From assembly GCA_025041175.1 (NCBI GenBank), contig JAKCFJ010000002.1:310001-374000 (forward strand): a stretch of DNA of 64,000 nucleotides. Direction: 5' to 3'. Of this stretch, positions 3,470 to 10,447 are shown piece by piece (positions within the stretch are counted from its first letter, which is position 1; each line of letters starts with the position of its first letter). Below the pieces are notes generated by a model. It did not search any database. It saw only the letters and a program-made list of their open reading frames with translations, and had not been told where the DNA came from. The position numbers and the translations under genes are program-made. The DNA comes from Halobacteriales archaeon YIM A00010 (GTDB lineage Archaea > Halobacteriota > Halobacteria > Halobacteriales > Haloarculaceae).

Positions 3470-4291
3470 TTATCGCTCTTCGAGATCGTCGGTGATGTAG
3501 TCGAGTGCCCGTCCGGCGACGTCCCCGATGCCCCGAACCGACCGGCCGAGATCCGCAGTGATGATCGTCCCAGTCATTGGTCGGGCGTTTTCCTCCGATG
3601 CGAGCAGCACGTAGGTTCCGGTGTAATCCGACGGCTGGGGCACGATGTCCAGCGGGTGGACGGACGGATCGAACTCCGATTCGGAGACGGCATCGGCGCG
3701 GTCGAGCGAATCGACCGTCGAGAAGTTCGTCGGGATGTATCCGGGGGCGACGCCGTTGACGCTGATCGCCGGCGCGAGTTCGAACGCGAGCTGCCGGACG
3801 AGTCCGGCGACAGCGTGTTTCGATGGAACGTACAGCACTCCACCACCGTCCGGGTCGAAGCTCGCGCCCGACGCGGTGAACACCATTCGTCCGTCGGTTT
3901 CGAGGAGCTCCGGTAGGGCGGCTTTCGCGCCGAGGATGTACCCCAACACGTTGACATCGAAGAGGCGGTGGAACTCCGCTTCGGCATCGGAGAGTTCCGG
4001 AAGCGTCACGTTCCCGTCGAAGCGGCCGGCGTTCCCGACGAACACGTCCAACCCCCCGAACGCCTCGACGGTTCGTGTCACGGCGCGTTCGTTGTCCGCA
4101 AGGCGGGTGACATCGCCCTGAACGGTTTCCACGCGCGCTTTGTGGGCATCGTCGATGGCTTCGAGCCTCTCCTCGTCGATATCGAGCACACCGACCGACG
4201 CCCCCTCCTCGACGAACCGATCGACGACCGCGCGCCCGATCCCGGAGCCGCCACCAGTGACGAGCACAGTGGTGTCTTCGAGCCACCCCAT
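3470..4291 (-). CDS. Short-chain dehydrogenase/reductase (SDR)
   Basis: This is a 273-residue classical SDR. The N-terminal Rossmann motif is TVLVTGGGSGIGRAV, the NAG motif is VGNAGRF, and the catalytic Ser-Tyr-Lys set is seen in FTASGASFD and YVPSKHA. The acidic residue after the second strand (VLDID) favours NAD(H). I chose the ATG at 4291 (MGWLEDTTVLVTGG) rather than the longer frame opening at 4417, because the SDR fold begins there and the extra 42 residues look non-coding and overlap the upstream gene. It probably oxidises an alcohol or dihydrodiol in the catabolic set around it, perhaps a product of the Rieske oxygenase at 10.4-12.3 kb. Confidence 0.88.
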   Translation of the reverse strand: MGWLEDTTVLVTGGGSGIGRAVVDRFVEEGASVGVLDIDEERLEAIDDAHKARVETVQGDVTRLADNERAVTRTVEAFGGLDVFVGNAGRFDGNVTLPELSDAEAEFHRLFDVNVLGYILGAKAALPELLETDGRMVFTASGASFDPDGGGVLYVPSKHAVAGLVRQLAFELAPAISVNGVAPGYIPTNFSTVDSLDRADAVSESEFDPSVHPLDIVPQPSDYTGTYVLLASEENARPMTGTIITADLGRSVRGIGDVAGRALDYITDDLEER

Positions 4292-8936: not shown

Positions 8937-9812
8937 ATGGTGGTTATGGAGCCGACGCCAGGAGACGTTACCCTGGAATCGATGCGGTACGAAAGCGACG
9001 ATGGACGCCGGTTCGACGGATTTCACATTACGAGTGAATCGACCGCTGAAGGCAAACGGACCGGCGTGGTGTTGTTACACGGGCTCAGGGGAACGGCGCT
9101 CAGCGGCGGGATCGCTGCCGTCGCGTACGCGCTCGCACGCCGGGGGATGGAGTGTCTGGCAATCAACAAGCGCAACACCGGGAAGCTGTACGAAGTGTCC
9201 GACTTTTCGTCGATCGACCACGACATTCGTGGGGCGGTCAAGTGGTTACGGGCGGCGGGCTGTGATGAGATCGTGCTGTGGGGTCGAAGCCTCGGTGCCA
9301 CTGAAGCGGCCTACTACCAGGGAAAACGAAACGATTCGGACGTGGACAGCGTCGTGCTCGCCGCGCCGTTTGCGGATATCAGAGAGCGTTCGACCAGGGG
9401 ATATTTCGAGGCCGTTTCCGAGAATCCCGAACAGGCGTATGCGGAGTTCGTCGAGAACGCCCGCGACCTCGTTGCGGAGGATCGTGGCAACGAGATCGTC
9501 GCGCTCCCGCGACCGGTCGGTGACGACATCGAGTACATCCCGATGACCGCACAAGCGTTCCTCTCCTATCGCTCGCCCGAGAGCGACTGTGCGACCATCG
9601 ATTGGACGCCCTCGATCGGCGTTCCCGTGTTGCTCGTTCCCCACGCCGAGGACAGAAACGTCACGCCCGAGGAGGCCACGGAGATCAAAGAGTCGGCCAC
9701 GAACAGCCCGCTCGTTTCCGTTCGGCCGATCGAATCGGATCACTTCTTTTCCGGCCACGAGGACGAAGTTGCCGACGCCACAGTCGAATTCGTCCGGCAG
9801 ACGCGGGATTAG
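8937..9812 (+). CDS. Alpha/beta-hydrolase
   Basis: This 291-residue serine hydrolase has the oxyanion segment VVLLHGLRGTA, the nucleophile elbow GRSLGAT, the acid in PHAEDRN and the catalytic His in ESDHFFSGHE. It follows the ThDP enzyme by 47 bases on the same strand and probably belongs to the same unit. In the nicotinate pathway the step after NicX is a deformylation by NicD, itself an alpha/beta-hydrolase. This gene is therefore a candidate for that step, although nothing in the sequence fixes the substrate. Its TAG stop overlaps the TAA stop of the convergent gene at 9809-10447. Confidence 0.85.
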   Translation: MVVMEPTPGDVTLESMRYESDDGRRFDGFHITSESTAEGKRTGVVLLHGLRGTALSGGIAAVAYALARRGMECLAINKRNTGKLYEVSDFSSIDHDIRGAVKWLRAAGCDEIVLWGRSLGATEAAYYQGKRNDSDVDSVVLAAPFADIRERSTRGYFEAVSENPEQAYAEFVENARDLVAEDRGNEIVALPRPVGDDIEYIPMTAQAFLSYRSPESDCATIDWTPSIGVPVLLVPHAEDRNVTPEEATEIKESATNSPLVSVRPIESDHFFSGHEDEVADATVEFVRQTRD

Positions 9813-10447
9813 TGGAACTCGACCAGGTCGTCGGGTTCCGGTCCGAGCGGCGTTTCGAGCAGTGCCGAGAAAAACGACGGATTCTGTCGTGCGAGCGTCG
9901 CTAGCTCGCTCGGTCCCAACACGATCGTGTAGCCCATTTTCACCGACGCGACGAGCAGCCGCTCGTCGCTGTCGCCAGAAATCTTCGATTTCTGGTTGCT
10001 AACCGAGCTTCGCTCGGTGATGTCGTCGGCCCGCGGCCGACTGCTTGAGGAGCTTTGCTCCTCTCTGTCGCCGGGCAAAGCCCGGCTGCTTGCTGAGCTT
10101 TGCTCAGCTCTGGTAATCTCGATCGCGCGCACTTCGACGAGCGCGTACTCGTTGCCGACCTGGATGGTGGCGCGTGGCTCGACGGATGCCGGATCTACTC
10201 CCTCCGTAGAAGCGGCTGTCGATGGGTGGGGGCGACGATCGTCGGGATGGATGAGATCATCGAGAAACCCCTCGGATTGCCACGTCACGCTCTCCAGTTC
10301 GAGCGCATCGAGGCGGCGCTCGGGTCCTTGCTCGGGACGGATCGACAGCCGGCTACCGTTTGGCGTGGTGTGCTTACTGATCGTAACGGTCGCGTGCTCG
10401 TCCGAGAGCACGACGCTTTGTGCGCCCTGGGGTTCCTCCTGTGTCAT
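9809..10447 (-). CDS. Unknown protein carried with the Rieske genes, interrupted in frame by a hairpin array
   Basis: The 212-residue frame is translationally coupled to the Rieske beta subunit (ATGA overlap at 10444-10447), so it belongs to that operon. I recognise no family. The outer parts look like ordinary acidic haloarchaeal protein: residues 1-112 contain ATIQVGNEYALVEVRAIEI, and the last 50 residues contain ERLLVASVKMGYTIVLGPSELATLARQ. Between them sits a Ser/Arg-rich stretch (EQSSASSRALPGD...SSSSSRPRADD...) encoded by six consecutive palindromes at 9975-10108. That insert keeps the frame open but is unlike its flanks, so the ancestral protein was probably about 165 residues. Confidence 0.7.
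   Translation of the reverse strand: MTQEEPQGAQSVVLSDEHATVTISKHTTPNGSRLSIRPEQGPERRLDALELESVTWQSEGFLDDLIHPDDRRPHPSTAASTEGVDPASVEPRATIQVGNEYALVEVRAIEITRAEQSSASSRALPGDREEQSSSSSRPRADDITERSSVSNQKSKISGDSDERLLVASVKMGYTIVLGPSELATLARQNPSFFSALLETPLGPEPDDLVEFH
9975..10108. repeat. Tandem array of six short perfect hairpins inside a coding region
   Basis: Six perfect inverted repeats, each with a 7-9 bp stem and a 3-base loop, follow one another every 22-25 bases. Arms and positions are ccagaaatc/gatttctgg (9975-9995), accgagc/gctcggt (10002-10018), gtcggcc/ggccgac (10025-10041), gaggagc/gctcctc (10047-10063), gccgggc/gcccggc (10070-10086) and gctgagc/gctcagc (10092-10108). Loops are ttc, ttc, cgc, ttt, aaa and ttt. 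The spacers are 5-6 bases; tgctt occurs twice and xxtgtc twice. The stems differ in sequence but share form and spacing. Unlike CRISPR, the repeats are not conserved in sequence and there are no 30-base spacers. Confidence 0.9.

Follow-up and report, generated by a model that had tools for sequence, protein, structure and literature searches.

Within the reading frame of a haloarchaeal gene lies a row of perfect hairpins that share one form while differing in sequence, which raises the question of what kind of element they represent and how it came to stand in a coding gene. The stretch of DNA analyzed here (the window) comprises 64,000 nucleotides of Halobacteriales archaeon YIM A00010. A preliminary description of it had reported six such hairpins and proposed three explanations: a mobile hairpin family, a site of template-switch mutagenesis, or an mRNA control element.

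The hairpin array and its host gene

All six tandem perfect hairpins are present at positions 9975-10108, with stems of 9, 7, 7, 7, 7 and 7 bp, 3-nt loops and 5-6 nt spacers. Folding the DNA of either strand yields exactly six hairpins (z -9.2 and -8.9), and shuffles of the window never produced even two tandem 7-bp hairpins. The Halocatena salina orthologue has no array: aligned with it, the window gene carries an insert of 47 codons, or 141 bp (amino acids ~113-158, missing there), which bears out the in-frame insertion reported earlier, with boundaries uncertain by 1-2 bases (Table 1). A Ser/Arg segment without palindromic coding did not turn up in this orthologue comparison. The seventh palindrome of the region is not palindromic in its orthologue counterpart.

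The spacers of the array are conserved and alternate, reading TGCTA/GATGTC and TGCTT/TCTGTC on the plus strand and, in order, AAGCA, GACAGA, AAGCA, GACATC, TAGCA(A) and GACA on the minus strand; the repeating unit is therefore two hairpins. The stems differ from each other yet group into a few classes, so that the earlier picture of single hairpins of unrelated sequence holds for the variation of the stems and gives way, for the rest, to a double hairpin with conserved tags. A covariance model was built from 26 real 45-nt units of the source genome, and its best match in the window is unit 2 (72.7 bits, E 4.6e-22, E-values being rough). In unit 3, the 9-bp stem of the second hairpin (hpB) is followed by a mismatched tenth pair (A/C). 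The left end of unit 1, which is also that of the array, is degenerate (TACCAGA) and counts against an explanation by mobile elements. A weak second match of 26 bits lies at 3768-3812 on the plus strand, with an hpB-like stem (CCGGAC/GTCCGG) and a GACA tag, its first hairpin (hpA) being decayed or absent.

Table 1. Features of the host gene and its array in the window, and further insertions with an empty site in a congener
Feature	Position	Strand	Description	Basis
Host gene	9809..10447	-	212 aa hypothetical protein, Rieske/ring-hydroxylating dioxygenase operon	ORF
Inserted array	9975..10115	-	141 bp, three double-hairpin units, in frame	Filled/empty alignment with Halocatena salina (L080)
Unit 1	10064..10115	-	hpA 10092-10108, AAGCA 10087-10091, hpB 10070-10086, GACAGA tag 10064-10069	
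Unit 2	10019..10069	-	GACAGA, hpA 10047-10063, AAGCA 10042-10046, hpB 10025-10041, GACATC	
Unit 3	9970..10024	-	GACATC, hpA 10002-10018, TAGCA, hpB 9975-9995, GACA tag 9970-9973	
Adjacent palindrome	9948..9969	-	9 bp, 4-nt loop, host sequence, outside insertion	
PEP carboxylase			Insert of 153 bp	Empty site in congener
GH3 glycosidase			Insert of 216 bp	Empty site in congener
P-type ATPase			Insert of 45 bp	Empty site in congener
AMP-binding enzyme			Insert of 57 bp	Empty site in congener
Hypothetical gene			Insert of 51 bp	Empty site in congener

Architecture and pairing of the unit

The unit follows the consensus 5'-GACA-WS-[hpA]-WAGCA-[hpB]-GACA-3' in lengths of 45, 51 or 57 bp, and we propose for it (hpA-WAGCA-hpB-GACA) the name double-hairpin element (DHE). 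Units in arrays run head to tail in a single orientation, and every unit is flanked by two tags that point the same way. When units were selected by their tags only, so that pairing was not required for inclusion, 574 of 585 stem cells were Watson-Crick pairs (98.1%) and 5 were G-U, and shuffled DNA gave 0 such units; the observation that form is kept while sequence varies is thereby sustained. Double-sided changes occur at 10 of 14 stem pairs in a comparison of 26 units, which were chosen as perfect, so that their paired percentage reflects selection. Pairing perfection is not strictly enforced after insertion, because one of two related units in a beta-CASP gene already carries a mismatch.

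The closing pair of the hairpins is C-G in 146 of 148, and the loops are GNA or TNC in 104 of 148 (70%). C-GNA-G is the motif of very stable DNA minihairpins, which would thus mostly fall on one strand or the other. Hairpins with the same stem and reverse-complement loops number 33, in excess of the 17.7+/-4.0 expected by chance. Four paralogous gene copies (L025, L030, L039 and L041, reverse strand) have strongly diverged flanks and a unit that is identical except for one loop, one copy differing solely by a clean TTC-to-GAA loop inversion. Together, the excess and the clean inversion point to DNA-level strand exchange at the hairpins.

An RNA element selected for a function in mRNA, such as a terminator, stabilizer or guide RNA scaffold, would be consistent with the strong folding of the array as RNA (z -9.1); we regard it as very unlikely, since the units lie within unrelated coding genes in both orientations, G-U pairs are few, the minimum-energy RNA fold mixes in long-range pairs between distant arms instead of forming six hairpins, and comparison of the units with Rfam families returned nothing above the gathering score. 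The mRNA control element suggested at the outset is set aside on the same grounds, and movement at the DNA level is favored over an RNA role.

Other classes of tandem perfect hairpins were also observed (L013 9295-9440, L017 18944-19141, L024 8975-9157, L020 16751-16967), with spacers TCAGTGA/GACCTC/GCATCTT and AACGTCC/TGTGCGA/CAACGTC; these often adjoin class-1 arrays.

Distribution in haloarchaeal genomes

Units are dispersed copies that form tandem arrays and stand in frame in conserved genes. A DNA similarity search of the source genome returned 47 places, and 40 stretches of 20 kb contained 31 arrays, each with three to nine hairpins, compared with none in shuffled DNA; these stretches were mostly picked around the similarity places, which biases the density of arrays in them. 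The covariance model matched 101 times in this Halocatena genome. Within the Halobacteriales it had matches in 112 genomes out of 146, representing 44 of 57 genera, and among 69 genomes from the rest of the phylum it had none. Units are thus confined to the Halobacteriales among the genomes compared and are widespread there. The genome-wide search proposed by the preliminary description accordingly found other arrays in the source genome and across the order, and the absence of such arrays, the outcome it had named as speaking against its reading, was not observed. Viral contigs gave no match in a narrow test with one exact pattern.

Identical units occur where the flanks are unrelated (e.g., L021/L032 and L024/L034), with shared cores of 39-40 nt. 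In one genus (G037, G075, G144; L237-L254), many arrays lie within larger dispersed repeats that have common flanks such as GACCTCGCGCGTGC.

Insertions in protein-coding genes

Six filled/empty pairs in Halocatena contain inserts of 45, 51, 57, 141, 153 and 216 bp, all multiples of three. Pfam searches confirm that the host genes are real (GH3, PEP carboxylase, AMP-binding, P-type ATPase) and place the inserts within or between domains. In other genera, units stand in frame in PurD, a PEP-utilizing enzyme, a HerA-like helicase, a beta-CASP nuclease, histidine kinases, a molybdopterin oxidoreductase, and others. With an empty site and copies across the genome and the order, the mobile hairpin family is supported as the right one of the three original proposals.

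In the beta-CASP nuclease, most of 30 orthologues have the empty sequence HVLVDDGDTRLL, and a unit occupies the same D-D turn in three families (G066, G133 and the pair G072/G061), two further members of the G072 genus being empty; this pattern indicates that one site was hit independently three times or more, many losses being the less likely alternative. A GACA/GACG-like tetranucleotide is found on both sides of the unit at most filled sites. The alignments thus show that units enter precisely at GAC(A/G)-like sites and end up with such a site on either side. Insertion between near-identical strains was not seen. Two species with ~90% identical flanks differ by one unit in a histidine-kinase array (2 versus 3; L242/L256).

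In some genes (the histidine-kinase N-box, PurD), hpA has a 5' arm that matches the host sequence following the insertion, which simple insertion does not predict. The idea that hpA generally copies the flank of the target was rejected, the resemblance being weak overall and clear only in these two cases. Units at the N-box were observed in histidine-kinase genes of several families (L231, L236, L242, L255, L256), where hpA contains SVEHG codons, and the N-box motif is thereby duplicated or tandemly repeated.

Selection at the protein level for a Ser/Arg linker, with the palindromes as a side effect, would account for the recurrence of hydrophilic peptides of the DSEGLRPSGSRTQSDD type, and its probability is close to negligible: some arrays are intergenic (e.g., L011, spanned by no reading frame), units also occur in other frames, and coding the peptide does not need palindromy.

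Candidate mechanisms of movement

One possibility is a REP/PATE-type element that depends on a trans-acting Y1 (HUH) transposase, an IS200/IS605 enzyme with recognition of hairpin ends. IS605 mobilizes single-stranded DNA hairpins, tandem hairpin groups reach 2.29 per 10 kb at tnpB loci, roughly tenfold the 0.16-0.25 of random DNA, and divergent tnpA and tnpB genes enclose a GACA-hairpin-GCA-hairpin-GACA unit (L088/L145). Nevertheless, we consider this explanation unlikely, as unit copy number is correlated neither with Y1 genes (Spearman -0.23, p 0.11, n 50) nor with tnpB (Spearman -0.17), three genomes that are 99% complete have 25-36 units and no Y1 (G037, G065, G075), and another has 9 units and neither gene (G067). 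Because copy number is untied to these genes and Y1-less genomes have many copies, a resident IS200/IS605 transposase is not required. In a two-copy IS605 element of G033, the unit is an insertion within the right-end palindrome, so that IS605 ends look like targets. The density at tnpB loci had also suggested that the unit is itself an IS605 right end, an idea weakened by this insertion and by the finding of only 2 strong model matches among 63 Y1/tnpB loci. Separately, the vicinity of tnpA/tnpB transposon ends in the source genome and others repeatedly holds double hairpins whose spacers read TSATSA or TGGATACG (L104, L120, L121, L145, L124, L131).

An enzyme that moves the units was not found among the Y1 and tnpB genes compared with copy number; the mover may be an enzyme that has been lost, is plasmid-borne or falls outside PF01797, or the units may spread by strand-switching of the host. 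In the last case, no dedicated enzyme would act, and template switching during replication or repair would copy hairpins from one arm to another as well as into GACA microhomologies. The enriched loop inversions, clean in one of the four paralogues, agree with such copying, as do the host-like hpA arms of the histidine kinases and a chimeric hairpin in the GH3 array (GAGGAGC-AAA-GCTCGGT; L009 9802-10011), whose arms are drawn from two stem classes. This explanation is rather unlikely, though it has a larger share of probability than transposition by Y1: the identical cores at unrelated flanks and the repeated use of one target call for a donor copy and for a choice of site, and tags conserved across families point to a specific recognizer. 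The template-switch site of the preliminary description is thus supported in part, by the loop inversions above chance and the one clean paralogue.

Comparison with known elements

In its behavior, the DHE comes closest to the palindromic elements of Rickettsia (RPE) and to CGTC-tagged REPs. These are short dispersed palindromes with a C/TGTC tag at the hairpin foot that insert in frame in conserved genes, with no dedicated transposase known (PMC3733652, PMC10969869). The tags GACA/GACG of the DHE are TGTC/CGTC on the other strand, and, as in RPE, units are inserted in frame in unrelated protein genes. RPE are ~150 bp long, and CGTC-tagged REPs, found in bacteria only in that survey, have stems of 8-9 bp with A-T pairs at the first two positions, loops of 4-5 nt, and mostly head-head dimers with the tags outside (PMC3733652, PMC10969869). 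In contrast, DHE stems of 7-10 bp mostly start with a G-C or A-T pair followed by C-G, loops have 3 nt, and the units, which are archaeal, combine two unlike hairpins in direct order with direct tags and form tandem arrays. The DHE is not filed as a CGTC-tagged REP, since its stems, loops and dimers depart from the rules of that family.

With GTAG REPs and BIMEs associated with RAYT, the DHE shares clustered hairpin units whose structure is kept through alternative paired bases; it differs in that it has no GTAG tag, occurs without Y1/RAYT, and is often intragenic rather than extragenic. The nearest haloarchaeal categories, compared by description, are the PATE and SMR-A elements of Haloquadratum. 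According to the portion of the source available (PMC3119063), PATEs end in IS605-like palindromes with terminal oligonucleotides, and they resemble the DHE as small non-coding elements with palindromes and an IS605 connection, whereas most strong class-1 units lie away from IS605 ends. In the same portion, SMR-A repeats are ~110 bp long, have terminal inverted repeats, lack a transposase and target duplication, are mobilized in an enigmatic manner, and insert into near-terminal palindromes of IS605 (PMC3119063), as the unit does in G033. They differ in size and, as far as that description extends, show neither in-frame gene insertions nor tandem double hairpins. Our search of the open-access literature found no description of a double-hairpin element in haloarchaea; archaeal REPs are described in the RepRanger paper, whose text contains neither "halo" nor "in-frame".

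A model for the element and its significance

Given the dispersed copies, paired stems and precise empty sites, the DHE is best explained as a miniature mobile element that often forms in-frame tandem arrays, and the window array probably consists of three tandem copies of this non-autonomous element. Its mobile form would be single-stranded DNA folded into two hairpins, which would leave the stem sequence free to drift while pairing is kept. Insertion would be placed after a GACA/GACG-like tetranucleotide, and the GACA end of the unit would recreate the target, allowing more units to join head to tail; from the GACA tags and the 2- versus 3-unit histidine-kinase arrays, we infer that arrays grow by such self-targeting. 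Genic insertions would survive solely if their length is divisible by three and the peptide, hydrophilic and composed of Ser/Arg/Asp, falls in a tolerant surface turn. More tentatively, and with somewhat less than even confidence, the DHE could be a haloarchaea-restricted class of mobile DNA that travels as single-stranded double hairpins independently of known transposases, has its stems kept paired by strand switching, and acts across the lineage as an in-frame generator of peptides in essential enzymes and sensor kinases.

If the explanation by a mobile element is right, an archaeal order owns a counterpart of the Rickettsia palindromic element that is far more widespread, and flexible peptides are inserted by it into core enzymes. 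The many filled and empty sites offer material for asking how a DNA of 45 bp moves, how its hairpins are kept free of mismatches, and how loops arise in proteins. For annotation, a haloarchaeal protein segment rich in Ser/Arg/Asp, SSRTQSDD for example, may be the insert of a mobile element.
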